A stretch of DNA of 64,000 nucleotides from Acidimicrobiia bacterium. GTDB lineage: Bacteria; Acidobacteriota; Terriglobia; Bryobacterales; Bryobacteraceae. Below the pieces are notes generated by a model. That model worked only from the letters and a program-made list of their open reading frames with translations, searched no databases and was not told the DNA's origin. The stretch spans positions 26,484 to 90,483 of the forward strand of contig VFZE01000022.1 in the NCBI GenBank assembly GCA_016871315.1, read 5' to 3'. The first letter of the stretch is position 1. Every line of letters begins with the position of its first letter. Both the position numbers and the translations under genes were made by a program. This document shows, piece by piece, positions 7,091-41,417 of the stretch.

Positions 7091-8299
7091 CTAGAAGGTG
7101 AACGCAAGGATCGCGTCCAGTTGGTTTCGGCGCACATCGTTGGGCGCTGACTGCCCGTACCGCCACTTCGTGGCCCCCCAATGCGAGAAGCGGAATCCAG
7201 GCTCTAAGCCGGCTCCTCTCCAGTTCCGCCGTATACCTGCCCCTGCCGTTAGCCCGCTGGTGCCCAGGGATCCTCCAAGATCCTGCGGTAGCCGGAACGA
7301 GGGACCGGCCTCCACGTAGGGCTGCCATCTCCCCGTTCCGTGCTTGTACCGCAGCAGCAACGGAAACTGCCATAACACGGCACTCTTGTGAGTCCCGGAA
7401 ACCGTTACCCGCCGAAGCTCCCCATCCGGCAAAACGAGTTCGTAAAACCCCGCTGACCGAAACCGGAGCGGCCGGTAGCCGGCTTCCACGATCAAGCCGA
7501 TTTGATCCGAAAGCGTGAACGCCACTCGCGGTCCCCATACCGGCGTCCTCAGGTACACAGTGGAAAAACTCGAGGGCGCGGTTCCACAAAGCCGTGCCAG
7601 CTTTGTTCGCGCACCGGGCGAATCAGCAGGAAGCCTCCCACTATGCCGGGTTGAACCCGTCCGCCCAGCGGCTGCCGGTCACTCACCCCATCCCTGCTGA
7701 TGGCCACCAGCGCTTCCAGTTGATCCTGTTTCGATGGGTGCGTCCACCACGGGTCCGCCGCCCATCTCGTGTACCGGAACGTTGGCGCGACTCGAAAGCC
7801 CAACTGCTTCCAGTCCAGCCCGGCCCCTGCCGTCAGACCCGTGTGCGAAGGATTGGTATTGCGATTGCCCGTGGTGCGGAACGATGGACCAGCTTCAAGA
7901 AAAGGTCTTGCGCCCCCTCGACCGGCAAACCGGTACTTTGCCAGCACGGGGAACTGCCATGTGATTTGTTGGGCCCACTCCTTCCACCCGCAGCCGCCGG
8001 TAGATCGCATTGGTCTCGAGTGAAAGCCGGTCGCCGAACTGCCAGGCCAGCGTCGGTCCGCCAATCGCCGATCGAGAATCAGATCGGCGTGTATAGGGAG
8101 GAATGATGATTGCGGTTCGGTCGGGCAACTCGACCCGTGCGCCCGGAATGGCGAACGAAGAGTAATCGGCCGTGATGCCGGTGCCGGCGATCACTCCAAA
8201 CCGGACATGTTGAGCCTCAACGCGGCCCACGCACGCCAAGAGAATCCCGCACATCCCCAACGCGGCTGCTCCGCTCGTGCCCGCCCGTGATCCCATCAA
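7091..8299 (-). pseudogene. Tandem outer-membrane beta-barrel domains, broken by frameshifts
   Basis: Reading leftward from 8299, a signal peptide (LGMCGILLACVGRVEAQ) opens a barrel domain ending near LEALVAIS. A second similar domain runs on to 7091, ending DAILAFTF with terminal Phe as in outer-membrane proteins. The two copies align clearly: QFPVLAKYRF, FLEAGPSFR and GLTAGAG match QFPLLLRYKH, YVEAGPSFR and GLTAGAG. The frame shifts near 7985, between RRLRVEG and WAQQITW, and near 7558, between EPRPRVF and VYLRTPVW. The first copy has no stop before the second, so the two may once have been a single protein or adjacent paralogs. Confidence 0.75.
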
Positions 8300-8440: not shown

Positions 8441-11017
8441 TTGTCTCGTAGTTGGTTTTTTCTCACATTCACCCTCTTTGCCGCCGCCGATGCGATGGCG
8501 CAATCGGCGCCTCCTGCGGCCCCGGCCAAGCCGATGGCTGCTCCTCCGCGTCCGCGTATGCAAGCCTCCGCGATGCGCAACGAAAACGTGGTGGTGAACC
8601 CGATCGACAACAACGCCATCAAGGAAGTGAATGTGCGGCTCGGGGCGACGGTGACGCTGGTGACCGAACTGCGTCCGGAAACGGGATATTTCGCGACAGA
8701 GTTCGGCCGGCCGGCCGGGCAGCTGCTGTTGCTCGGTCCGGCGGTGCGTCCGCCCTCCTGGCACGGAGATTTTTTCTACTGGCACCAGAACAGCGTGATG
8801 AACGCGCGCACCTTTTTTCAAGTGGGCCAGGTGCTGCCGTCGCGGAGGAATCAGCACGGGGGCCGGGTGACGGGCGAGTTGGGGCCTCGCACAGGACTGA
8901 CGGCGAATTACTCCCAGCGCGATGTGCGCGGGATGGTCAACGGGAACGTGCTCGTGCCGCTGGAATCCGAGAGAACGCCGCTGACGCGGGATCCGCAGTT
9001 GAGGCCGCTGGTGGAGCGTTTCTTGAGCGCGTATCCGAAGCAGCTGCCGAACCGGCCGGACTTTGACGCACGGGCGCTGAACACGAATGCGCCCCAGCGC
9101 ATTGACGATCTGGACGGGAACCTGCGGCTCGATCACGACCTGGGTTCGCGGGGGAAGCTTCACCTGCTCTATGTGAACGGGCGGGCTCGGACGGACGCGT
9201 TTCAGCTGGTGGCGGGACAGAATCCCGATTCGGCGATCCATAGCCACCGCGCGCAGGCCACGTGGAAGTTCGCAGCATCGCCGGGGACCGATGTGGCGAT
9301 GGGAGGAAACTTTACCAGAACGGCATCGAACCTGTTGCCGGAGCCGAACGCAGTGGGCGTGCGTGTGCGGGTCGGTTACCAGATTGAAGAGCTGGGTCCG
9401 GAGAGCGAGTTTCCGGTGATGCGGGCGCAGAACCTGTACCGCTACGGCGCCGATGTAGCGCACCGCGTGGCGGACCGGCATGAGTTCCGGCTGGGCGGCG
9501 AGATCACCCGGTTCCAGCTCAACGGCATCGAGACCAGCAATCTCCGCGGGCAGTTCAACTTCACGAACAACTTTGGGCGCACGGCGATTGAGAATCTGCG
9601 GCTGGGAACACCGGCGTTTTTCGAGGCCACCACGGGAGAGATGGCGCGCGGATTCCGGACGTGGGGAGGAAGCCTGTACGCGGCGGACCGCTGGAGGATC
9701 ACGACGGCGCTGCAACTGCACTATGGGGTGCGGTACGGCTTTGCAACAGCGCCGTCGGAGGTGAACGGACTGCACGAGACCCCGTATGCCTGCGACTGCA
9801 ACAATTTCAGCCCGCGGCTCTCGCTGGCATGGCAAATGGGCACGGGATGGATACTGCGGACCGGCTACACGGTTTCGTTCGGGGAGATCCAGCCGGTGAC
9901 GTTCCAGCAGATGCGCTTCAACCTGCCGCACACGCGGATGGTCCAGGTGCAGAATCCGGACCTGTTGAATCCGCTCAGCGGCGGCGGGAACCTCGACAGG
10001 AGCGCGCCGACGATCCTTTCGCCCGACCTCGTGGCGCCGTACGTGCACCAGTACAACCTCAACGTGGAGCGGAAGTTGAGCGGCGGGATGCTGTTGCGCG
10101 TGGCCTATATCGGCGACCGCAGCTTGAAGCTGATGAACTCCTTCATCCAGAACCGGGCCGAGCCCGTACCGGGAGTGCCGTTGACGCTCGACACCGTGGA
10201 CCAGCGGAGACCGGATGCGCGCTACTTTGATACACGCAGTATTCTGAACGGCGGCATGGGCCACTTCAACGCGGGCCAGGCGACCGTGGATTTGCCCTAT
10301 TATCGCGGACTGCGTTTGTCGGCCAGCTACACGTTCAGCAAGGCGATCGACGACGGGTCCGATTACACCTCGACGGCGGCCAACCGTGACCTGATGCGGG
10401 CGCGGAGCCAGTGGCAGTATGAATCGTTTGGGGACAAGCGAAGCCTCTCGGCATTTGATTCGCCGCACTCGCTGCTGACCAGCTTCAGTTACGATTTGCC
10501 GGCGCTGGCGGGCCGTTCGAAGTGGGCGCGGAGACTGGCCGGTGGCTGGCAGCTGGCGGGCGTTACGCTGGTCAAATCGGGGACGCCGCTGACTCTGTTT
10601 GTGGGGTCGGATGCGCCGGGGTTCGGGAACGTCGATGGAGGACCAAGCGACCGGCCGAACATCGTGGACGCGAGTATTCTGGGAGCGACGATCTCCCACC
10701 CCGACCTCGCGCCACAGATTCTGCGGCGCGACCGGTTTGCCTATATTGTGCCTGGGGAGCGGCGAGGGTCGTTGGGGAGGAACAGTTTCCGCAAGGCACG
10801 GATCTCGAATTTCAATGCCGCCGTTACCAAGCAATGGCAGTGGGCGGCCAGCGGGCGTGAGTGGACGACGCAGCTGCGCGCCGAGACGTACAACCTGACC
10901 AACACGCCGCAGTTTGATGAGCCGCAGCGCAACCTGAGCTCGCCTGCATTCGGCAAGATCACGAATACCTTAAATGATGGCCGCGTATTTCAGATCGGAG
11001 TGAGGTTAACTCTTTGA
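8441..11017 (+). CDS. Oar-like TonB-dependent receptor lacking the N-terminal regulatory domain
   Basis: An 858-residue outer-membrane receptor of the Oar-like type abundant in acidobacteria. A signal peptide (FFLTFTLFAAADAMAQ) leads into a region with part of the plug and then repeated beta-barrel strands: GTAYW-like segments are absent, but RFQLNGIETSNLRGQFNF, YAADRWRITTALQLHYGVRY, RLSASYTFSKAIDDGSDY and the C-terminal FQIGVRLTL are typical. The usual carboxypeptidase-regulatory domain seen at the start of the receptor at 41484 is missing. An in-frame stop lies two codons before the TTG start, so the protein cannot extend further. It may be a natural short form or an N-terminally trimmed gene. 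Likely cargo is unknown (oligosaccharide or peptide import is the usual guess). Confidence 0.82.
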   Translation: MSRSWFFLTFTLFAAADAMAQSAPPAAPAKPMAAPPRPRMQASAMRNENVVVNPIDNNAIKEVNVRLGATVTLVTELRPETGYFATEFGRPAGQLLLLGPAVRPPSWHGDFFYWHQNSVMNARTFFQVGQVLPSRRNQHGGRVTGELGPRTGLTANYSQRDVRGMVNGNVLVPLESERTPLTRDPQLRPLVERFLSAYPKQLPNRPDFDARALNTNAPQRIDDLDGNLRLDHDLGSRGKLHLLYVNGRARTDAFQLVAGQNPDSAIHSHRAQATWKFAASPGTDVAMGGNFTRTASNLLPEPNAVGVRVRVGYQIEELGPESEFPVMRAQNLYRYGADVAHRVADRHEFRLGGEITRFQLNGIETSNLRGQFNFTNNFGRTAIENLRLGTPAFFEATTGEMARGFRTWGGSLYAADRWRITTALQLHYGVRYGFATAPSEVNGLHETPYACDCNNFSPRLSLAWQMGTGWILRTGYTVSFGEIQPVTFQQMRFNLPHTRMVQVQNPDLLNPLSGGGNLDRSAPTILSPDLVAPYVHQYNLNVERKLSGGMLLRVAYIGDRSLKLMNSFIQNRAEPVPGVPLTLDTVDQRRPDARYFDTRSILNGGMGHFNAGQATVDLPYYRGLRLSASYTFSKAIDDGSDYTSTAANRDLMRARSQWQYESFGDKRSLSAFDSPHSLLTSFSYDLPALAGRSKWARRLAGGWQLAGVTLVKSGTPLTLFVGSDAPGFGNVDGGPSDRPNIVDASILGATISHPDLAPQILRRDRFAYIVPGERRGSLGRNSFRKARISNFNAAVTKQWQWAASGREWTTQLRAETYNLTNTPQFDEPQRNLSSPAFGKITNTLNDGRVFQIGVRLTL

Positions 11018-11062
11018 GGGATAGCTGGAGTTTCCACTATATATTCCTTCTAGTTTTCGGTA

Positions 11063-11068
11063 TATAAT
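11063..11068 (+). promoter_or_regulatory. Putative -10 element of the PP2C gene
   Basis: A perfect TATAAT lies 12 bases before the phosphatase start codon, in an AT-rich patch that stands out in this GC-rich window. No good -35 hexamer is present at 16-18 bases, so this is a partial call. If used, the transcript would have a very short leader; GGAG lies only three bases from the ATG. Confidence 0.4.
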
Positions 11069-11080
11069 TCGCTGGAGTCC

Positions 11081-11839
11081 ATGATCGAGGCTGCTGGCAA
11101 CTCGGACCCAGGTTGCGTCCGGAAGAATAACGAGGACAAGCTATTTATCAATCAGGCGCTCGGCTTGTACGTCCTGGCTGATGGCATGGGCGGAGCCCAG
11201 GCGGGGGAGACGGCGGCGCAAATTGCCATCGATGCGGTGGTAGATTATGTCCGGGGGACCGAGCAACGTTCCTCGGAAACGCTGGTGCAGGCATTCGAGC
11301 TGGCCAACCAGAAGGTGCGCGAGGAGGCAGCCACCGCGCCGCACTTGAACGGGATGGGGACAACTCTGGTTGCCGTGCTGGAGTGCGGCAATGAACTGGC
11401 GATAGCCAGCGTGGGGGACAGCCGCGCATACCTGGTGGAAGGCAATGCCATGAAGGCGATCACGCAGGATCAGACGTGGGCCAACGAGGTGGGCAGAAGG
11501 CTGGGATTGAACGATCAGCAGCTGAAGACACATCCGATGCGGCATGTGCTGACGATGGCCATCGGCGTGGATGCGCCCCTGCGGGTGCACTCCTATAAGG
11601 TGGCGCCGGGACCCGACGTGCAGATCCTGCTGTGCAGCGATGGGCTGCATGGGGTGGTAAACAAGGAGACGATCGGTGAGCAGCTGAACGCCACCGCGAG
11701 CTTGGAAGATAAGTGCTGCGCGCTGATCGAGTTGGCCAGGCAGGCGGGCGGGCCGGATAACATCACTGCGGTACTGCTGCACCACAGCGGCTCCAATAAC
11801 TCCTATCCGCAGGCGAAGAATACCTACCCCGGTCAATAA
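11081..11839 (+). CDS. PP2C-family serine/threonine protein phosphatase
   Basis: A 252-residue PPM/PP2C phosphatase, the normal size for bacterial Stp1/PrpC enzymes. The metal-binding motifs are in order: GCVRKNNEDK near the N-terminus, LYVLADGMGGAQAGE, ASVGDSRAYLV, LLCSDGLHGVV and GGPDNITAVLL. It dephosphorylates Ser/Thr residues using two Mn or Mg ions in the cytoplasm. No kinase gene is adjacent; the only kinase in the window (26648) is broken. Three genes for secreted proteins follow on the same strand after 65 bases, possibly as a separate transcription unit. Confidence 0.95.
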   Translation: MIEAAGNSDPGCVRKNNEDKLFINQALGLYVLADGMGGAQAGETAAQIAIDAVVDYVRGTEQRSSETLVQAFELANQKVREEAATAPHLNGMGTTLVAVLECGNELAIASVGDSRAYLVEGNAMKAITQDQTWANEVGRRLGLNDQQLKTHPMRHVLTMAIGVDAPLRVHSYKVAPGPDVQILLCSDGLHGVVNKETIGEQLNATASLEDKCCALIELARQAGGPDNITAVLLHHSGSNNSYPQAKNTYPGQ

Positions 11840-11904
11840 AGGTGGGAGATTTCCCCCCCTCACCGCACTATACTCTTCGAGGCTAATGGGGCCCGTCAGT
11901 CGGG

Positions 11905-12513
11905 ATGCGCATGAGGCTGTTAGCAGCGGCGCCGCTGGCACTGGTTGTGTCGGCGCCGGTCGCGAGTGGTGAAATCGCGAGCCTGCAAATCAAGATCATT
12001 CAGGGAGAGGATACGGTGCATAGCGCCGGACGGCGGGGGCGGCGTCCGATCCGCGTAGAAGTACAGGAGCCGACAGGCAAGCCGGTGGAGGGAGCGGTGG
12101 TGAGCTTCAGTCTGCCCGAGGAACACGGCAGCCAGTTCGCGAACGGGATGAAGACGGAGATTGTGACGACGGGCGCCGACGGGCGGGCGTCAGTGTGGGG
12201 CATGGAATGGGGCAAGGAACCCGGACCGGTGCGTATACGGATCACGGCTTCGAAAGGCGAGGCGCGGGCGGGCGGCATCCTGGTCCAGACATTGGCGGAA
12301 GAGGCTCCGGCGGTGGAAGCTGCGGCGGAACGGCCGGTGAAAATCGCTAAGCCCGGCAGCCGCTGGACGCTGATCGCGGTGGTGGCGGCGGGGGCGGCGG
12401 CCGGGGCGCTAAGCGCGGGTCTGACGAAAAAGGGCGCGGCGGCAGCCGGGCCCGCGGCGGCGGCGCCGGCCCTGCAGATCGGCCCTCCGGCGATTTCGGT
12501 GACCAGGCCATGA
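11905..12513 (+). CDS. Secreted Ig-like domain protein with C-terminal membrane segment
   Basis: A 202-residue protein with a signal peptide (AAAPLALVVSAPVASG), then a beta-sandwich-like domain. The pattern PIRVEVQEPTGKPVEGAVVSF, followed by VTTGADGRASVWGMEW and GPVRIRITASKGEA, is that of carboxypeptidase-regulatory or bacterial Ig-like modules. A Gly/Ala-rich hydrophobic stretch near residues 150-170 is probably a membrane anchor, followed by an Ala/Pro-rich tail. Function is unknown. Its stop overlaps the next start (ATGA), making it the first of three coupled genes for exported proteins. An alternative ATG lies two codons in. Confidence 0.75.
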   Translation: MRMRLLAAAPLALVVSAPVASGEIASLQIKIIQGEDTVHSAGRRGRRPIRVEVQEPTGKPVEGAVVSFSLPEEHGSQFANGMKTEIVTTGADGRASVWGMEWGKEPGPVRIRITASKGEARAGGILVQTLAEEAPAVEAAAERPVKIAKPGSRWTLIAVVAAGAAAGALSAGLTKKGAAAAGPAAAAPALQIGPPAISVTRP

Positions 12514-13280
12514 GGATTATGATTCCGGCAAGAGCGGCGATTCTGTTCTTCTGCGCGGCTCATCTGCCGCTGATGGCGCAACGGATGGGCGTGCCCCGGC
12601 TGGGGTGCGTGGTGAGCGCCGGCGGTGCGGTGCGGATGGTCTACGGGCTGCGCGCGAATTTTATCCTGGGCGAAGCGGCACAAATAGAAGCGGTGTCGGC
12701 GGCCTGTTCGGAAACCAACGCGGTGGTGAAGACAACGGATGCCTTGGTGGTGTTGGATGCCGAGGGCCGCGAACGCCACCGGTTTCTGGCGGAGGCCGGC
12801 GCCGCTCTTGTGTCCTTCCGGGATGACGGTGACGTGGGACATGTCTATCTCACCGCAACGCGCGAGTTGTTGCGGTGGGAGAACGAGGAATGGGTGAAGG
12901 CGGATCTTCCGCATGCGGGAGAGATTCTCTCGATTGGGGAGCGGGACGGCGCCGTCGTGGCGGTGGAGCGCCGGGGCGAGGAGCTGTGGCTGGTGGAGAG
13001 CCGCGCGGACGGACGGTACCAGGTTCTGTCGCGGTTTGTGTCGGAAGCGTTGTTCGCCGTGCTGCTGCCCGACGGCTCCCTGGTGCTGGCGGCGGGCGAG
13101 AAGCTGGTGCATCGAAAGCCGGATGGGAGCCAAACGGAGATCGAGGTTCCCGCGGCGGTGACACGGCTGTCGGTGATCGGCGGGAAGTGGGTGCAGGTGG
13201 AGACCGGAGTGCAGCGCATGGCGGTGCGGGTGGAGGGCGGTCAGGCCGAGGCCTACTATCTACCTGGGGAAGCGCGATGA
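12510..13280 (+). CDS. Secreted protein, probably beta-propeller-like, function unknown
   Basis: A 256-residue protein with a signal peptide (AAILFFCAAHLPLMAQ). The rest is a run of short beta-strand units with turn motifs: DALVVLDAEGRERHRF, LLRWENEEWVKADLP, LWLVESRADGRYQVLS, AVLLPDGSLVLAAGEK, LVHRKPDGSQTEIEV. This resembles WD40/YVTN-type propeller blades, though too few blades are seen for a complete propeller. No catalytic residues stand out. It is joined to both neighbours by four-base ATGA overlaps, so the three proteins are probably made together. Confidence 0.7.
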   Translation: MRIMIPARAAILFFCAAHLPLMAQRMGVPRLGCVVSAGGAVRMVYGLRANFILGEAAQIEAVSAACSETNAVVKTTDALVVLDAEGRERHRFLAEAGAALVSFRDDGDVGHVYLTATRELLRWENEEWVKADLPHAGEILSIGERDGAVVAVERRGEELWLVESRADGRYQVLSRFVSEALFAVLLPDGSLVLAAGEKLVHRKPDGSQTEIEVPAAVTRLSVIGGKWVQVETGVQRMAVRVEGGQAEAYYLPGEAR

Positions 13281-14629
13281 AGCGTCTTGCGGTACTGGCG
13301 CTTTTGTGCGCCGGGTGCGTGCAGGCGCAGTTTTCCATCGCGACGATCAGCGGGAACGGCGAGGAACGGGCAATCGTGGGGATCGTCGAAACGGAGAAGG
13401 TGCAGGCGGGCGGGTTTCAGGATATCCGCGTGCGGCTGCGTAACACCGGGGAGGCGACGGCGGCACTGTCGCGGCTGCGGATAACCGGGGTGGGGTTTTC
13501 TCTATTGGGGCAGCCGCCGTTGCCGCACTTGGTGGCGCCGGGGCTGAACGTGGATTTCCGCGTCAGGTTCCTGCCGGCGCAGTTTGGGATCTATAGCGGA
13601 ACGCTCGAGGTGAACGAAACGGTCGTGCTGTTTCGTGGGGTAAGCCCGCAAGGGATTACCGTGCTGGTGGAGCAAAGGGGGCGTCTGGAGACGGCGACAG
13701 AGACGGTGCCTGTGGTGGCGGGGCGCGTGGAAGTAGGCAAGTCGGCCGGGCTGCGTCTGGTCGTGCGGAATGACGCGGCGGGTCCTCTGGTTGTGGGTGC
13801 CCTCACCGTGCAGGGTGAGGCATTTTCGCTGTATCCCGCTCCGGCGCTTCCATTGCCGGTGGAGCCGGGACGGTCAGCGGAGTTTGAGCTGCGGTTCGCT
13901 CCGCTGCGGGTGGGAGTGGCGCAGGGAACTCTATTGGTGGATACGCTGAGGATCGCGCTGGAAGGCTTCGCGATTGCGCCGCCGTTTCCCGCGGCGATCC
14001 TGTCGCTGGAGCCCGCGCTTGCGAGTGGCCGCCAAGGCCGGATCGCGCTGCGGCTGGACGCGCCGCCGCTGGTATCGGCCGCCGGAACGCTGACTTTGGA
14101 GTTCCGGTCAGCAGTCACCGTGGGCGGGGACGATCCGGCAATCGTGTTTTTGAACGGAGCGTCGCGAAGCGTCGCCGTGGCGGTGAGGCAAGGCGAGACG
14201 AACCTGGGCGAGTGGATGTTTCAGACGGGCTCGACGGCGGGAGAGATCCGCTTCCGCTTGCAATTGGGCGACCAGCGATGGGAGGCCGCGGCGGCGATCG
14301 CGCCGGCGATGGTGGCCGTGGATGCGGTGCGGGGAGTAAGAACGGCGACGGGTGTGCAAGTGGATATTACCGGGTTTGATAATTCGCGGACCGCTTCCAC
14401 ACTGGGATTCCGGTTCTTTGACCGCCAGGGGAATGCGCTGGGCGGAGATGTGTTGCGGGCCGATGCGGCGTCCGGCTTTCAGAGCCACTTCCGGACGGCG
14501 AACGTCGGTGGGCTGTTTCTGTTGCGGGCTGTGTTTCCCGTAGGGGGCGATACGGCCCTGATCGGGGCAGTGGAGGTGGAGATCGATAACGCACAAGGCA
14601 GGACAAGGGCGTCGCGGGCCAGTTTTTAG
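13277..14629 (+). CDS. Secreted choice-of-anchor D (HYDIN-like) multi-domain protein
   Basis: A 450-residue exported protein. A signal peptide (LAVLALLCAGCVQAQ) is followed by at least two Ig-like repeats of the choice-of-anchor D/ASPM-SPD-2-HYDIN kind: DIRVRLRNTGEATAALSRL with PGLNVDFRVRFLPAQFGIY, then GLRLVVRNDAAGPLVVGAL with GRSAEFELRFAPLRVGVAQ. A C-terminal module ends FRTANVGGLFLLRAVFP. The start at 13277 overlaps the previous stop; an earlier in-frame start would bury the signal peptide. It completes the three-gene exported set. The coding stretch 14474-14513 is duplicated 1.3 kb downstream. Possible roles are adhesion or scaffolding on the cell surface. Confidence 0.82.
   Translation: MKRLAVLALLCAGCVQAQFSIATISGNGEERAIVGIVETEKVQAGGFQDIRVRLRNTGEATAALSRLRITGVGFSLLGQPPLPHLVAPGLNVDFRVRFLPAQFGIYSGTLEVNETVVLFRGVSPQGITVLVEQRGRLETATETVPVVAGRVEVGKSAGLRLVVRNDAAGPLVVGALTVQGEAFSLYPAPALPLPVEPGRSAEFELRFAPLRVGVAQGTLLVDTLRIALEGFAIAPPFPAAILSLEPALASGRQGRIALRLDAPPLVSAAGTLTLEFRSAVTVGGDDPAIVFLNGASRSVAVAVRQGETNLGEWMFQTGSTAGEIRFRLQLGDQRWEAAAAIAPAMVAVDAVRGVRTATGVQVDITGFDNSRTASTLGFRFFDRQGNALGGDVLRADAASGFQSHFRTANVGGLFLLRAVFPVGGDTALIGAVEVEIDNAQGRTRASRASF
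14474..14513 (+). repeat. 40-bp direct repeat, source copy
   Basis: These 40 bases lie in frame inside the exported HYDIN-like gene (encoding GFQSHFRTANVGG) and recur without mismatch at 15796-15835. The protein context here is natural, so this is taken as the original copy. Confidence 0.9.
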
Positions 14630-14630
14630 G

Positions 14631-14808
14631 CGGGTCGCTTGGGAGTTGGACGCGGCAGGCTACACGACGTTCTCGCAAGCATGGGATTTTGAGCCCGGGC
14701 AGAATTTCATCCTGAAAATGCGGGACGCCGCCGTCGCGGGTGCGGCCTTTCGAGGCGGCGGCCGCCATCTGCAGTGAGCCGGGGAACCTGCCGCTGGTGC
14801 TGGAGCAT
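14631..14808 (+). pseudogene. N-terminal half of a TIR domain fused to an NB-ARC fragment
   Basis: Directly after the upstream stop codon, frame 14631 encodes VAWELDAAGYTTFSQAWDF, then EPGQNFILKMRDAAVAGA. This is the first half of a bacterial TIR domain (usual form: WQLEAAGYxxxxQAWDFxPGxNFxLEM). The expected first 20-25 residues of the TIR domain are absent. At the position where family members usually carry Glu (NFxLEM) this copy has Lys. At about 14745 the similarity stops and 14754-14808 is, in another frame, a piece of NB-ARC (AAICSEPGNLPLVLEH). The matching C-terminal TIR half begins at 15836. A decayed defence-type gene. Confidence 0.8.
14754..14808 (+). repeat. 55-bp direct repeat, displaced copy from NB-ARC coding sequence
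   Basis: Matches 16626-16680 at 51 of 55 positions by eye. The downstream copy lies in a full NB-ARC context, so this upstream one is the displaced or eroded copy. It sits exactly at the left junction where the TIR similarity breaks off. Confidence 0.85.
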
Positions 14809-14853
14809 ACCGCGCCGACGCATCCAATCATGCGACCCTTCGCCTGTACGCAT

Positions 14854-14872
14854 GGTATAAGTGTTATATACC
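14854..14872. promoter_or_regulatory. Inverted repeat, candidate BrnA operator and promoter
   Basis: The arms GGTATA and TATACC are perfect and separated by 7 bases, ending three bases before the brnT start. The site contains a TATAAG -10-like hexamer. BrnA-type ribbon-helix-helix antitoxins repress their own operons by binding such palindromes, so this is the likely operator. No ribosome binding site is visible, and brnT may be translated from a very short leader. Confidence 0.5.
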
Positions 14873-14875
14873 TCC

Positions 14876-15145
14876 ATGCGCTATTCTTTCGATGAACGAA
14901 AGAGCCGTTTGGTTAAACGCCTGCATGGAGTCAGTCTCGAGGAGGCTCTCGAGATCTTCGATCAGGTTCACCTGATCGACCGGAAGAATGATGATCCCTT
15001 GCCGTTTCGCGCCATCGGCTGGTGCCGCGGGCAACTCTGTTCGGTGATCTACGAGGTCAGAAGTGATGGGAAGGGGGAACTCCACCATCTGATCACCGCC
15101 TGGAAATCGACTACGGAGCAAATCGCCTATGCCGAAAACACGTAA
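14876..15145 (+). CDS. brnT: BrnT-family type II toxin (ribonuclease)
   Basis: An 89-residue protein of normal BrnT length. The N-terminus YSFDERKSRLVKRLHGVSL, followed by EEALEIFDQ, is the family's D-x2-K-x(n)-K/R-HGVS-x(2)-EA-x(3)-F-D pattern. The middle FRAIGWCRGQLCSVIYEV fits the RELE-like fold, and the C-terminus ITAWKSTTEQIAY fits the R/K-rich catalytic end. BrnT is an mRNA-cleaving toxin neutralised by the downstream BrnA. The gene overlaps brnA by 17 bases. The ATG at 14876 is used; a GTG five codons upstream falls inside the inverted repeat. The pair looks intact amid broken genes. Confidence 0.82.
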   Translation: MRYSFDERKSRLVKRLHGVSLEEALEIFDQVHLIDRKNDDPLPFRAIGWCRGQLCSVIYEVRSDGKGELHHLITAWKSTTEQIAYAENT

Positions 15146-15386
15146 GCCCCGCAAAACGCCGGATGAGATCGCAGCCATGGCCAGACGCGGAGAAGACGTG
15201 TCGCAATTCTTCTCCAATAAGTTCACCGTCGTGCGGCCGATCAGGCGTGTCAATGTTGACCTCACCGAAGGCATGCTGCGGGAACTGGATGCCCGCGCGG
15301 CGCGGCTCAACATCAGCAGGCAGGCTGTCATCAAGACCCTGCTCGCTCAGGCCATCGAGCAATCGTCCGGCAAGAGCGCGAGCTGA
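15129..15386 (+). CDS. brnA: BrnA-like ribbon-helix-helix antitoxin
   Basis: An 85-residue protein with a basic N-terminal tail, then RRVNVDLTEGMLRELDARAA and RLNISRQAVIKTLLAQAIE. This is the beta-strand/two-helix ribbon-helix-helix fold of BrnA/CopG antitoxins. The N-terminal segment (residues 15-35, SQFFSNKF) would wrap BrnT and the C-terminal fold would bind the operator. It overlaps brnT by 17 bases, so the pair is co-translated. Order toxin-antitoxin is normal for brnTA. Confidence 0.82.
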   Translation: MPKTRKPRKTPDEIAAMARRGEDVSQFFSNKFTVVRPIRRVNVDLTEGMLRELDARAARLNISRQAVIKTLLAQAIEQSSGKSAS

Positions 15387-15511
15387 GATCCCTGAATACC
15401 GCGGATGCCATCAGGGATCTGTTCTCCGGCTGGACCCCCACCGAAGAAGCAGACCCCACAACTTCCGGCCTGGTCCAGCAGCAGGCGTGGTTCGCCAAGC
15501 TCCGGAAATGA
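15362..15511 (+). pseudogene. C-terminal tail of a small protein upstream of an AbiEii-like toxin
   Basis: Frame 15362 encodes IVRQERELRSLNTADAIRDL, then FSGWTPTEEADPTTSGLVQQ and QAWFAKLRK before a stop, with no start codon of its own. The stop overlaps the next ATG (ATGA), the arrangement of coupled antitoxin-toxin genes. The peptide looks like a genuine C-terminus rather than random sequence, but the front of the gene has been lost to, or overlaps, brnA. No family was recognised with certainty. Confidence 0.5.
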
Positions 15512-15752
15512 CCCCATCCTCCAGGCCGCGGCGGAGATCCAGCACTTCTTCGATCAACCGCTTTGGAGCCACTGCATCATCGGCGGCGTAGCGCTTCTCT
15601 ATTGGGGCGAGCCACGCCTCACCCGTGACGTCGATATTACCCTGCTGGCCGGATACGGAAGAGAAGATGAGTTTATCCTGCCCGTCCTGGATGGGCCTTT
15701 TCGTTCCAGGGCGGAACGCATCGGCCTCTGTGCCAAATCGAAGAGCAGTTGA
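15508..15752 (+). pseudogene. AbiEii-like nucleotidyltransferase toxin fragment
   Basis: The stretch ILQAAAEIQHFFDQPLWSH, then CIIGGVALLYWGEPRLTRDVDITLL, contains the GG-x(n)-DxD active-site pattern of MNT/AbiEii nucleotidyltransferases. These modify tRNA or other targets in toxin-antitoxin and abortive-infection systems. The natural ATG at 15508 is one base out of frame with this sequence, so the start is frameshifted. Similarity ends at about VLDGPFRSRAE, after only the first quarter to third of a usual AbiEii protein, and the frame then stops at 15752. It is a truncated, non-functional copy. Confidence 0.7.
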
Positions 15753-15795
15753 AGCCGCGGAGGCCAAGCAGCAGCCTGAGATCCTTACGGCCGCG

Positions 15796-15835
15796 GGCTT
15801 TCAGAGCCACTTCCGGACGGCGAACGTCGGTGGGC
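15796..15835 (+). repeat. 40-bp direct repeat, displaced copy of HYDIN-like gene sequence
   Basis: Identical over 40 bases to 14474-14513. It is placed immediately before the point (15836) where the C-terminal TIR half begins, and has no coding role here. It marks the right junction of the inserted cassette. Confidence 0.9.
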
Positions 15836-17058
15836 ACGATTGCGGTGATGTCCCCGGATTATCTGGAGTCGCGCTTCGCGGCCGATGAATGGTCGGCGGC
15901 GTTCGCGGGCGATACGCTGCTGCCTGTGCGGGTGCGCCCCTTCAAGGATAAGCTCTTGGGCGTCAGGGTCTATATTGACTTGGTTGATCAGGATGCGGCT
16001 GCGGCGCGGGCGGCGTTGCTGGAAGGAGTAAAGCAAGGCCGGCGGAAGCCCGCGTCGGCCCCGTCGTTTCCGGGCAACAAACGAGCGCAGCCCCCTCAAT
16101 TTCCCGGTTCGCTACCGGAGCTCTGGCGCGTTCTTCACAGGCAGGGAAGAGCTGCTAAAGGCGCTCTACCGTTCCTTGCGCAGCGGGCAGCCCGCCGCGG
16201 TGACGCAGGCGATTGCGGGCTTGGGCGGGGTGGGGAAAACGACCCTGGCGGCCGAGTATTGCTACCGTCATGCCGGCGAGTACGGCTGCGTCTGGTGGGT
16301 TCGGGCCGAGCAGAGCGCGACGCTCGTGGAGGATCTGGCGCTGCTGGCCGAGCGGCTGGGCGTGGCGGAAAAGAATGAGCAGGACCGCACGGCCGCGGCG
16401 CGCCGCGCGCTCGAATGGCTGCACGCGAATCGCGAGTGGCTGGTTGTCTTCGACAATGCGGGGCCTCCGGCGGAGTGCGCGGATTGGATGCCACGCTCGG
16501 GCTCGGGCCACGTCATTATCACATCGCGCGACCCAGGCGGCGGCCCGGACGGTGGAGGTGGCGGTGCTGGAGCCGTTGGAGGCCGTCCGGTTTTTGCAGG
16601 AGCGCACGGGGAAACAGGAGCCGTTGGCGGCCGCCGCCATCTGCAGGGAGCTGGGGAACCTGCCGCTGGCGCTGGAGCATGCGGCGGCCTATGTGTTGGA
16701 TGCGGTGATTGGACTCGCCGTCTACCTGGAGCGGCTGCGCACACGCGGGAAAAAGCTCCGCGGGCCGGTGGCCTCGAGCGTGGGGCTGTCGATTGATCGG
16801 TTGACCAAGGAGTCGAGCGGCCTGCTGGAGAGGCTTGCATTTCTGGCGCCGGAAGACATACCGCGCGACGTGTTCGGGGAGGAGGACGATGAAGCCTTCG
16901 CCGGGTTGCGGCGGCATTCACTCATTAGCACAGGGGCCGATGCGTTCCGCGTTCACCGGTTGGTGCAGGCGGTGGTTCGGGATGGGCTTGCTGAGCGGAG
17001 GGCTGGGCAGGCGGAAGAGGTTGTCAAATGGATGAACCGGGTGTTTCCGTTCGTGCGG
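15836..17058 (+). pseudogene. TIR C-terminal half plus NB-ARC (STAND) ATPase, frameshifted and truncated
   Basis: Three reading frames each encode part of one TIR/NB-ARC protein. From 15836: TIAVMSPDYLESRFAADEW and LLPVRVRPF, then VYIDLVDQDAAAARAALL, the second half of a TIR domain. From about 16132, another frame: FFTGREELLKALYRSL, Walker A GLGGVGKTT at 16218, Walker B WLVVFDNAG at 16437 and the sensor ITSRD. From about 16550, a third frame: FLQERTG, GNLPLALEHAAAYVLD (GLPL-like), GLSIDRLTKES and FRVHRLVQAVVRDGLAE (winged-helix region). The expected C-terminal TPR repeats are missing after WMNRVFPF. TIR-STAND proteins are anti-phage or signalling NTPases; this one is dead as read. Confidence 0.85.
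16626..16680 (+). repeat. 55-bp direct repeat, source copy in NB-ARC sequence
   Basis: Encodes the AAICRELGNLPLALEH stretch in its natural NB-ARC context. A 51/55 match occurs at 14754-14808. Confidence 0.85.
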
Positions 17059-17393
17059 GACAAGAATGAGATCGCGGCCATGGCCAACCGCACGGCTTCA
17101 TCCAGTTCCTCCAGTAGCGCGTGCCTCTCGCGGTAGGCAGAATGGCCGCCTGGCCCATGGCCTCCGCCACGGCCCAGCAACAGCGCACTCTCGCGTTTGT
17201 TGATGATGCCTCAGAGGGCGGCTTCGATCAACTCATGGTAGGGCAGGCAAGCGGGCGTGCTTACCGCCTTTCCCGCCCGTGACGGCGCTGGGTCCAGCCG
17301 AACTGGCCCAGCGCGATCACTTGTTTTTGCTTTTCTTTGCCCAACACCGCTCACCGGCCAGAGCGTATTGCTCCGCCGAACTTCATCGAGAGA
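17059..17393. other. Decayed segment without an intact gene
   Basis: No complete gene is visible here. The left part follows the breakpoint of the NB-ARC gene. On the minus strand a helix-like peptide (YRERHALLEELDEAVRLAM) can be read around 17085-17140 but was not recognised. The right part contains a short IS21-like transposase remnant, listed separately. Confidence 0.5.
17261..17347 (-). mobile_element. Remnant of an IS21-type transposase (IstA N-terminus)
   Basis: Twenty-nine codons from a GTG at 17347 read LGKEKQKQVIALGQFGWTQR, then RHGRERR and stop. The start of IS21-family IstA proteins typically has (K)QQVLALGRLGWSLRRIERETG, a helix-turn-helix region. Only this start survives, and the frame is broken before the second helix. 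It suggests that an insertion sequence took part in the rearrangement of this region. The match is short, hence the modest confidence. Confidence 0.4.
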
Positions 17394-17711
17394 TCAATTC
17401 TCGAACACCAGCTTCGTCGCCGTCCCCCCGATCCGGATCTCTCTCACCTTGTACTTGCCGTCTCCGTTCAAATACCGGATCGAGGTCGAGTTGAACTTGG
17501 AATCCGCCGTTTCCACCTTCACCGTCGCTTCCACTTCGTTCTTTCCGTTGCTGATCACAACCTTGTTGTCCTCGACGGTCAGCATGTAATCACCCGCCTT
17601 CAACTCCGATCCCGCAACCACCGAATCCTGATACAGCTTCAACCGGTGTGACTGGGCGGCAGTGGCGATTGCCAGCGCGGCAAACGCAAATAGAGTAAGC
17701 AGTTTTTTCAT
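17394..17711 (-). CDS. Small secreted protein of unknown function
   Basis: A 105-residue protein with a clear signal peptide (LLTLFAFAALAIATAAQ) and a small beta-rich domain: SVVAGSELKAGDYMLTVED, KVVISNGKNEVEATVKVET, IRYLNGDGKYKVREIRIGG. The pattern suggests a compact beta-barrel or sandwich of the kind common in acidobacterial secreted proteins. The start has AAGGAG five bases upstream. No catalytic residues or partner are evident. It lies downstream of miaA with a 156-base gap that includes a hairpin, so it probably has its own promoter. Confidence 0.8.
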   Translation of the reverse strand: MKKLLTLFAFAALAIATAAQSHRLKLYQDSVVAGSELKAGDYMLTVEDNKVVISNGKNEVEATVKVETADSKFNSTSIRYLNGDGKYKVREIRIGGTATKLVFEN

Positions 17712-17766
17712 GGTTTCTCCTTAACGCTCCTTGGCTTTGTTCGCGCGGCATCGCCAGCTGGCACAC

Positions 17767-17786
17767 GGGCCGCCGGTTAGCGGCCC
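17767..17786. terminator. GC-rich hairpin between miaA and the small secreted gene
   Basis: Perfect 7-bp arms GGGCCGC and GCGGCCC around a 6-base loop. It lies downstream of miaA on the minus strand and upstream of the next gene. There is no T-run, so it is either a weak terminator or a leader hairpin. Confidence 0.35.
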
Positions 17787-17867
17787 CCGGAACTCAGTGG
17801 CTTGTCACTGCCGCACATTTCTATATACGAACCACGCCCCATAATGTTCCGCCGGATTTTGTGAAGT

Positions 17868-18809
17868 TTACTGCTTTACCCCTAAAAAGCGTTCCGCTTT
17901 TCCCTCCGCTTTCCGCTGCACTGCCTCCTCCTCTCCAAATCCCTCCAGCCACTCAAACTCCTCATCCCGCCGGAACCACGTCCATTGCCTCTTCGCGTAT
18001 CGCCTCGTCTGCTTCGCCGTTTCCGCAACCGCCTCCTCCACGTTCAGCTCCCCGCGAATCACTCCCATCGCCTGCAGGTATCCCAGCGACTGCAGCGGCT
18101 TGCACTCCTCTCCATATCCCTTCTCCAGAATCGCCCGCGTCTCCTCCACCAACCCCCGCTCGAACATCCGCGCCGCCCGCTCCTCCAGCCGCAGGTACAG
18201 CTTCTCCCGCTCCGGATTCAGGCCCAGCTTCAGCACCCGGTATCCGCTCAGTCTCTCACGCCCCTCACGCAGCTGCTCCGTCATCGGCCTCCCTCCCACC
18301 AGCGTCACCTCCATCGCGCGGATCAGCTTCTGCACGTCGTTCGCGTGGATACGCATTGCCGCTTCCGGGTCCAGCCGCCCCAGGATACGGTGCAGCGAGC
18401 CCGGCCGCTTCCTCTCCCTCTCGGCCAGCCTCTCCCGCAGCCCTTCGTCCCTCGCTGGTCCCTCGAACAGCCCCTCCAGCAGCGCACTCAGATAGAATCC
18501 CGTGCCCCCTACCACCACCGGCAGCCTCCCGCGCCCGCTGATCTCCTCCAGCGCCGCCCGCGCCTGCCTTGCATAGTCGCCCGCCGTGTACTCCTCATCC
18601 GGCTCCGCCACGTCCAATAGATGATGCCGGACTACTGCTCTCTCCCCCTCGCTCACCTTCGCCGAACCGATATTAAAATACCGGTAAACCTGCACCGAAT
18701 CGCACCCGATGATCTCCCCGCCCAGCCGCCGCGCCAGCGCCATCGCCAGCTCGCTTTTGCCCGAACCGGTCGGCCCGGCCACAACCACCACCGGCGCCTC
18801 CGGCCTCAT
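17868..18809 (-). CDS. miaA: tRNA dimethylallyltransferase
   Basis: A 313-residue enzyme of normal length that transfers a dimethylallyl group to A37 of tRNAs reading UNN codons. Diagnostic motifs are the P-loop VVVAGPTGSGKSELA at residue 8, GCDSVQVYRYFNIGSAK (the DSxQVY substrate loop), the HHLLDV motif with the following YTAGDYARQA, and VVVGGTGFYLSALLEG. The C-terminal tRNA-binding part has AKQTRRYAKRQWTWFR. It stands alone and is divergent from the TPR gene at 18936. The start at 18809 coincides with the first Met before the P-loop. Confidence 0.97.
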   Translation of the reverse strand: MRPEAPVVVVAGPTGSGKSELAMALARRLGGEIIGCDSVQVYRYFNIGSAKVSEGERAVVRHHLLDVAEPDEEYTAGDYARQARAALEEISGRGRLPVVVGGTGFYLSALLEGLFEGPARDEGLRERLAERERKRPGSLHRILGRLDPEAAMRIHANDVQKLIRAMEVTLVGGRPMTEQLREGRERLSGYRVLKLGLNPEREKLYLRLEERAARMFERGLVEETRAILEKGYGEECKPLQSLGYLQAMGVIRGELNVEEAVAETAKQTRRYAKRQWTWFRRDEEFEWLEGFGEEEAVQRKAEGKAERFLGVKQ

Positions 18810-40953: not shown

Positions 40954-41390
40954 TGCCAAAAGTGATAAGAATCGCCCTCGCTCTGCTCGCCTTCTCCGCG
41001 CTGGCCGCCACAGCAGCCGAGAAGAAGTTGATTCATCCCAAGGAGTTCCCCAAGGGACGCCCCTTTAGCCCCGGAATCCTTGTCGACGGTACTTTATATG
41101 TAGCTGGTCAGGTCGGAGCCGATCTCAAAACCGGCACCATCTCCGAGGACTTTGAAGCCGAGGTCCGCCAGACGCTGGACAACATCGGGGTCATCCTGAA
41201 GGAAGCCGGCTACAGCTTCGAAGACGTCGTCTCCTCCAACGTCTACCTCACCGACATGGAGTTGTTCCAGCGGATGAACGCGGTCTACATCACCTATTTC
41301 AAGGAACCGCGCCCGGTACGCACGACCGTCGGGGTGGCCAAGCTGGTCGGGAAGGCGCGGATCGAGATCACGGTGATCGCCAAAAAGTAG
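40953..41390 (+). CDS. Exported RidA/YjgF-like enamine deaminase
   Basis: A 145-residue protein: a signal peptide (ALALLAFSALAATAAEK) followed by a complete RidA domain. Conserved features are FSPGILVDGTLYVAGQVG, the Thr-rich DFEAEVRQTLDNI, VVSSNVYLTDM and the C-terminal PRPVRTTVGVAKL with the substrate-binding Arg. Classical RidA proteins are cytoplasmic and hydrolyse reactive enamines or imines; this one is predicted to be periplasmic or surface-bound. The start at 40953 places the signal peptide first; an earlier in-frame start would pass through the palindrome cluster. Its stop codon lies in a 12-bp tandem repeat. Confidence 0.87.
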   Translation: MPKVIRIALALLAFSALAATAAEKKLIHPKEFPKGRPFSPGILVDGTLYVAGQVGADLKTGTISEDFEAEVRQTLDNIGVILKEAGYSFEDVVSSNVYLTDMELFQRMNAVYITYFKEPRPVRTTVGVAKLVGKARIEITVIAKK

Positions 41391-41414
41391 GCCAAAAAGT
41401 AGGCCAAAAAGTAG
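41379..41414 (+). repeat. Three tandem 12-bp copies including the RidA stop codon
   Basis: GCCAAAAAGTAG is present three times without mismatch. The first copy encodes the last three residues and the stop of the RidA-like gene. It looks like slipped-strand duplication and gives triple in-frame stops, just before the promoter of the receptor gene. Confidence 0.9.
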
Positions 41415-41417
41415 GCA

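Follow-up and report, generated by a model that had tools for sequence, protein, structure and literature searches.

A predicted BrnT/BrnA-like toxin–antitoxin pair inside a broken TIR–NB-ARC gene: possible insertion with long target duplication

How did a predicted toxin–antitoxin pair come to lie in the middle of an immune-type gene, with a short copy of the opposite flank at each of its edges? The question is raised by a 64,000-nt stretch of a Bryobacteraceae genome (assembly GCA_016871315.1, contig VFZE01000022.1, positions 26,484 to 90,483 of the forward strand), here called the window, in which what reads as one TIR–NB-ARC gene is opened within its TIR_2 domain by a cassette with a BrnT/BrnA-like pair. 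For this scar we lean towards insertion with a long target duplication followed by deletions, a reading for and against which our confidence is evenly balanced. Tentatively, and with rather less confidence, we propose that BrnT/BrnA-like pairs may be transposase-free mobile units that spread in the family by target duplication, and that one such jump may here have destroyed a TIR–NB-ARC immune gene, which the pair outlived. To our knowledge, the movement of small toxin–antitoxin pairs without a transposase of their own is little understood.

The interrupted gene and its cassette

The two TIR fragments (Table 1) match complementary parts of the TIR_2 model (122 columns): the N-terminal part covers columns 15-48 (14628-14759, 27.8 bits, cut-off 28) and the C-terminal part columns 55-120 (15839-16084, 36.1 bits). 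They are best read as one gene opened in its middle, because three sequences from relatives read through the TIR break: L076 (genome G037), whose single open frame to the contig end covers the TIR, NB-ARC and DUF7779 pieces in order, and the proteins P0002 and P0028. In the L076 alignment 18 bp separate the two aligned TIR pieces, and the loss at the opening is probably about one to six codons. The sequence-only reading had described a single TIR gene opened midway, with halves that meet with almost no loss, and had proposed a search for an uninterrupted relative. The opening was borne out and uninterrupted frames were found; the close fit holds for the two halves, but the start of the gene is also missing, its downstream part is frameshifted and two further local copies are present.

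TIR_2 columns 1-14 are absent, and TIR homology starts directly past the stop codon of the upstream HYDIN-like gene (14629). From 15836 onward the gene parts are spread over three frames, the NB-ARC part (frame of 16176) being frameshifted relative to the DUF7779 part (frame of 16552), and homology to L076 stops near 17068. The stretch 17087-17390 lies between this NB-ARC 3' break and a 105-aa gene of the right flank. The fragments score 140.5 and 74.6 bits with NF040586, a model of TIR–NB-ARC–TPR proteins of the FxSxx_TPR type, below its 300-bit cut-off. NB-ARC and the part following it resemble the proteins of this model, whereas the window gene is fragmentary and the TPR part was not found here. 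Judged by these matches, the gene is a relic and dead, and not a member of NF040586.

Two separate complete TIR genes, the arrangement that the earlier reading had set against a single opened gene, were not seen; the candidate was rejected, as the draft genome has one match per part searched and relatives read through the break. In a variant of this idea, the cassette would lie between the partly deleted remains of two TIR–NB-ARC genes once in tandem, and no duplication would be linked to its insertion. The 61-bp copy at the left junction is 90% identical to its source, as a diverged second gene would be; this explanation is nevertheless very improbable, since the gene has a single match in the draft genome, each half supplies almost exactly what the other lacks and the copy of the HYDIN-like gene would be left unexplained.

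By comparison with relatives, the cassette is composed of a BrnT/BrnA-like pair and the remnants of a second pair. The BrnT-like protein shares 62-66% amino acid identity with its counterparts in L077-L080 and gave no NCBIfam match at E 0.1, and the BrnA-like protein shares 69-75% identity with those of the same loci. The two genes are kept as a pair at 62-75% identity in four aligned relatives, with about twice as many differences at codon position 3 as at position 1 (two relatives compared). The N part of the AbiEii-like remnant reaches 15.6 bits with its profile, below the cut-off of 22.5, and is further supported by the comparison of relatives, while its C-terminal piece was identified by eye against L088 and L090. 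The inserted DNA had earlier been called an intact brnTA with a broken AbiEii-like toxin: both frames are indeed open, so that the pair may still work, and the AbiEii-like gene carries a deletion, but the BrnT and BrnA matches lie below curated cut-offs. No integrase or transposase family was detected among the locus pieces scanned. A plasmid source for the region was considered and rejected, the lone matching record being from Nonomuraea and covering 6% of the query.

Misassembly of the window is unlikely because both junctions are also covered by variant proteins encoded on other contigs. One of them, P0001 (contig of 52,451 bp), reads through the inverted patch, the 40-bp copy and the TIR part and departs from the window in frame. 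P0029 (contig of 2,603 bp) covers the left junction with one residue changed, and the sequence of P0005, which stands for 6 clustered proteins from 4 contigs (the longest 90,513), covers the NB-ARC 3' break. The contigs of P0001 and P0029 differ from the window's own. The genome is a draft of 166 contigs, which speaks for an assembly error; against this stand the three proteins, which may share a sample with the window, and such an error is most improbable.

Table 1. Features of the interrupted locus and its flanks, in window coordinates
Feature	Position	Strand	Evidence or remark
HYDIN/ASH-like gene, upstream flank, natural 3' end	13265..14629	+	ASH PF15780 26.6 bits (cut-off 27)
Source of 40-bp right-junction copy (left end of proposed target)	14474..14513	+	
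TIR fragment, N-terminal part, itself without start	14630..14745	+	TIR_2; aligned to L076
NB-ARC copy, left junction	14754..14814	+	61 nt, 90%; matches 16626-16686
BrnT-like toxin gene (predicted), open	14861..15145	+	PF04365 27.3 bits, below cut-off 34.5
BrnA-like antitoxin gene (predicted), open	15129..15386	+	RHH_1 above cut-off; NF047399 52.1 bits, below cut-off 60
C-terminal remnant of small gene preceding AbiEii-like genes in relatives	15387..15518	+	by eye against open reading frames of L088, L090, L091
AbiEii-like nucleotidyltransferase remnant: N-terminal ~60 aa, internal deletion, short C-terminal piece	15519..15787	+	
Inverted copy of 16928-16950 (NB-ARC) at AbiEii internal deletion junction	15711..15733	-	22/23
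HYDIN-like gene copy, right junction	15796..15835	+	40/40 to 14474-14513; spanned by P0001
TIR fragment, C-terminal part	15836..16084	+	TIR_2
NB-ARC, first frame	16176..16571	+	PF00931 26.7 bits, above cut-off 23.5
NB-ARC end and DUF7779, other frame	16552..17068	+	PF25000 34.1 bits, above cut-off 27
Source of left-junction copy (right end of proposed target)	16626..16686	+	
brnA-like copy at NB-ARC 3' break	17066..17086	+	21 nt, 20/21 to 15163-15183; spanned by P0005
105-aa gene, right flank	17394..17711	-	adjoins MiaA in most relatives where both found
miaA, right flank	17868..18809	-	

Local copies at the junctions and breaks

Each junction of the cassette carries, in direct orientation, a copy from the opposite flank: downstream sequence at the left junction and upstream sequence at the right. 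This crossed arrangement had been noticed in the sequence-only reading, and its 55-bp left copy (51/55, or 92.7%, in the shorter alignment) and perfect 40-bp right copy were both confirmed. Of the two small patches, the 21-nt brnA copy at the NB-ARC 3' break is the weaker, with an E value of 4.7e-4 over the 3,040-bp region.

When pairs of local copies lying 60-3000 bp apart with a score of at least 17 were sought, the window gave 4 pairs, 3 of them at this locus (scores 40, 39 and 19), and 366 kb of the same genome gave 6 pairs with a best score of 30. Among Markov shuffles of the 3,040-bp region, 1/1000 reached a score of 17 and 0/1000 reached 19. The region was picked for its repeats, and an exact p-value is therefore not applicable; the local copies of the window are more than chance would give. 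Their rarity is called into question by 32 stretches of relatives (421 kb), in which the same scan found 24 pairs, 12 scoring at least 25 and 5 at least 35. Nine of these 24 lie in L085, L086 or L076, with spacings (126 bp or its multiples) that resemble those of repeat proteins; another two represent the brnTA repeat of genome G002.

The crossed geometry of the window would follow from insertion with a long target duplication, because such an insertion brings the left edge of the cassette to the right end of the target and its right edge to the left end, and so predicts NB-ARC sequence on the left and HYDIN-like sequence on the right. The duplicated target would have run from about 14474 to 16686 and been doubled around the cassette. 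Each copy would then have lost its middle, the left one from TIR to NB-ARC and the right one from HYDIN to TIR, and the two smaller patches would be repair filler at later deletions.

A close rival, which we regard as a serious possibility on the lower side of even, is that Ku/LigD end joining or template switching mended a break in the TIR part, capturing the cassette and adding short local copies at its ends and at later deletions. It would explain the four local copies at four breaks, one of them inverted, as well as how the TIR halves come to meet nearly exactly and why the two small patches are there. Moreover, the genome encodes Ku and, about 2 kb from it, an 837-aa frame with a LigD polymerase domain (G000 C48:38295-41237; L109, L145), and scars with local inserts in Streptomyces ambofaciens offer a precedent (PMC5869714). 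The crossing, however, is not predicted by such repair and would arise by chance in roughly 1 in 16 cases (our estimate), and in the related genome G225 the downstream copy runs into the flank shared with genome G208, as expected of a re-copied target and not of loose filler. The junction flanks could be aligned; TIR bases have been lost at the joins, where microhomology or non-templated bases would be expected under this rival. The earlier reading had named both template-switch repair and a nested duplication with paired deletions; of these we slightly favour duplication, with template-switch filler retained as its rival. The two may even be one process, in which a strand would leave the chromosome, copy the cassette and return behind its point of departure. 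Short-patch double illegitimate recombination was also considered and set aside; a limited literature search found no support for it.

Possible duplicated targets around brnTA pairs in relatives

In G002, the 3' portion of the upstream gene recurs 2 bp past brnA as an 83-bp copy (89%), and the search was therefore widened to 257 genomes of the order. BrnT gave 72 matches in 62 genomes, 11 of the matches with an internal stop, so that many of these BrnT genes are decaying. Two matches (G249 and G252) were left out of the locus set. A locus was scored positive when a direct repeat with a score of at least 25 spanned the cassette, a threshold noted before the second set was analyzed. The first set comprised 28 testable loci out of 30, including the window's own and thus 27 relatives (L161 and L163 were too short on one side), and the second set 38 out of 40 (L204 and L210 were too short).

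Spanning direct repeats were found at 3 of the 27 relatives' loci in the first set (G002, G205 and G225), compared with 0/1500 random windows (p 4.9e-6), and at 4 of the 38 in the second (G177, G022, G257 and G149), compared with 15/744 matched windows (p 0.011). The pooled count is 7/65 relatives' loci against 15/2244 control windows, or 6/65 on a strict count without G022. Inverted repeats of score at least 25 were found at 0/38 brnTA loci of the second set and in 2/744 control windows. A 26-bp repeat in G196 (score 23) fell below the threshold and was not counted. The target or repeat is 66 to about 490 bp long in relatives. Relative to the stop codon of brnA, the downstream copy begins at -4 to 18 bp in G002, G225, G149 and G022, and at 99 and 126 bp in G177 and G257, respectively; the repeated pieces in G205 begin 21 bp past brnA. 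In the last genome (L155, reverse complement, 230-404, 1166-1330 and 1662-2008), the gene that holds brnTA is helicase-like (judged by eye) and partly duplicated, with a multi-piece scar.

The form expected of a duplicated target is seen in G225 (L180), which like G208 belongs to the family of the window's genome and where brnTA lies between 67-bp direct repeats (92.5% identity) that correspond to the 3' end of the upstream gene. In a search of 23 genomes of its genus for the empty site, G208 was found to match positions 3-1447 of the G225 query at 90% (739-2169) and positions 2089-2838 at 85% (62-809). The two matches overlap by 71 bp, which is the target itself, present in G208 as one contiguous copy without the pair; there is thus one target in G208, where G225 has two that enclose a brnTA unit roughly 640 bp long, and the downstream copy of G225 continues into the right flank that G208 shares. 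Whichever the direction of change, G225 has the form target–pair–target. We infer that G225 gained the pair, rather than G208 having lost it, and the insertion in the window may have used the same route.

Repeats at both ends could also result from integration by a single crossover or by site-specific recombination at the 3' end of a gene or an attC-like site. In favour of this, several repeats are 3' ends of the upstream gene (those of G225, G177 and G257), and that of G022 is a perfect 133-bp pair that can form a hairpin. It remains improbable: no integrase or transposase family was recognized at the pieces scanned, the two copies in the window are different sequences and not one att site, and the repeats vary between loci. 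In G022 (L201, 5585-5717 and 6546-6678) the hairpin is strong (no shuffle control), and the repeats directly follow two successive genes or gene pairs, the second being brnTA. This repeat may be an integron-type attC-like site.

Several observations weigh against target duplication, either in general or in the window. As to the repeats of relatives, (i) the first set includes G002, the case that prompted the test; (ii) counted per locus, the second set gives 4/38 against 4/37 control loci (p 0.66), the control loci having been sampled many times; (iii) no continuation of the gene was seen past the downstream copy in G002; (iv) the BrnT match of G177 has an internal stop; (v) the 133-bp repeat of G022 was set aside as a duplicated coding target, given its hairpin and an upstream gene that also ends there; and (vi) G208 could instead represent a precise loss between repeats, no outgroup having settled the direction. 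As to the window, (vii) the implied target exceeds 1.2 kb (by arithmetic from the L076 alignment), beyond the range of the relatives; (viii) neither junction holds a whole target copy, only opposite ends of one span; (ix) both deletions must end within a few codons of each other in the TIR part, which we estimate at a few per cent by chance; (x) the extra small patches require another process; (xi) no empty or intermediate site for this insertion was found among the relatives searched; and (xii) in the genus mate G001 the contig holds, among the window genes tried, only the HYDIN-like gene. One of the searches behind point (xi) covered 61 genomes with the DNA of the whole region; 18 had a match, and the junctions were covered only in the window's own genome (best 4 candidates per genome scored). 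A scan of genome contigs gave 3 distant loci.

Flanking gene order and comparison with known systems

The HYDIN-like gene appears complete at its 3' end, its relative in G001 aligning through the last residue. In G005, G012 and G013 the order is TPR, MiaA, 105-aa gene, an approximately 1.2-kb gene, TonB-type gene, PP2C, one of two small genes and HYDIN-like gene; TPR excepted, these genes share one strand. G016 agrees in order, without a match to the TonB-type gene. The HYDIN-like matches in these four genomes are 27-32% identical. In the window (8441-18809), the wrecked gene separates two blocks arranged tail to tail, one running from the TonB-type to the HYDIN-like gene and the other made up of the 105-aa gene and MiaA. 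By gene order, the wreck likely sits at an inversion breakpoint, the flank blocks being inverted relative to G005, G012, G013 and G016. A simple inversion with the 1.2-kb gene kept in place was rejected, the best match to that gene lying elsewhere (G000 C32:62505-63653, L146), on another contig, at 42% identity and with one internal TAG; either the flank change was complex or the L146 match is a paralogue. G010 has MiaA, the 105-aa gene and PP2C together on one stretch; this partial exception aside, none of the remaining relatives examined showed the two flank blocks on a common stretch. In the window, an outer-membrane-protein-like gene (7549-8299, minus strand; weak Pfam match), apparently frameshifted, lies immediately upstream of the TonB-type gene. 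Farther away, at 41379-41416, is a tandem repeat with a 12-bp period.

Three known processes resemble parts of this scar. In S. ambofaciens, three repair scars are described (PMC5869714): inserts of 42 and 83 bp had come from the vicinity of the break, and one of 30 bp from elsewhere. The likeness lies in the insert length (30-83 bp), in the local origin of two of the three and in the presence of Ku and LigD here; there, in contrast, the cut was induced, and here a cassette lies between two crossed copies. The junctions of microhomology-mediated break-induced replication or fork stalling and template switching (PMC2621351) likewise hold several copied pieces in both orientations at breaks, but the process was proposed for human copy-number change, and microhomology is not established in the window.

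The third is found among restriction–modification genes, for which long target duplication is reportedly to be credited to Nobusato et al. (2000) and Furuta et al. (2010). The earlier statement that no such signature had been described does not hold, given that insertion with long target duplication is described for these genes in three papers (PMC3874152, PMC1643837, PMC3031569), one of which gives the duplications as long, variable and of the order of 100 bp, and the movement as often accompanied by extensive rearrangements (PMC3874152). Shared features are (i) an addiction-type gene pair, with no transposase found here, (ii) host sequence directly repeated over tens to hundreds of bp, (iii) a relative with one repeat and no pair (G208) and (iv) rearrangement nearby. 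The differences are that the pair is here a predicted toxin–antitoxin pair and that the copies in the window are reduced to 61 and 40 bp. In a limited literature search, no paper was found that states target duplication for toxin–antitoxin genes; the new part would be a duplicated target on either side of a predicted toxin–antitoxin pair, together with a relative that has a single target and no pair. The G225/G208 comparison (two against one target of 67-71 bp) and the 7 candidates in 65 loci offer a concrete and testable route, and a jump of this kind may destroy an immune-type gene, its scar resembling exotic repair. If this proposal is true, target duplication serves toxin–antitoxin genes as it does restriction–modification genes.

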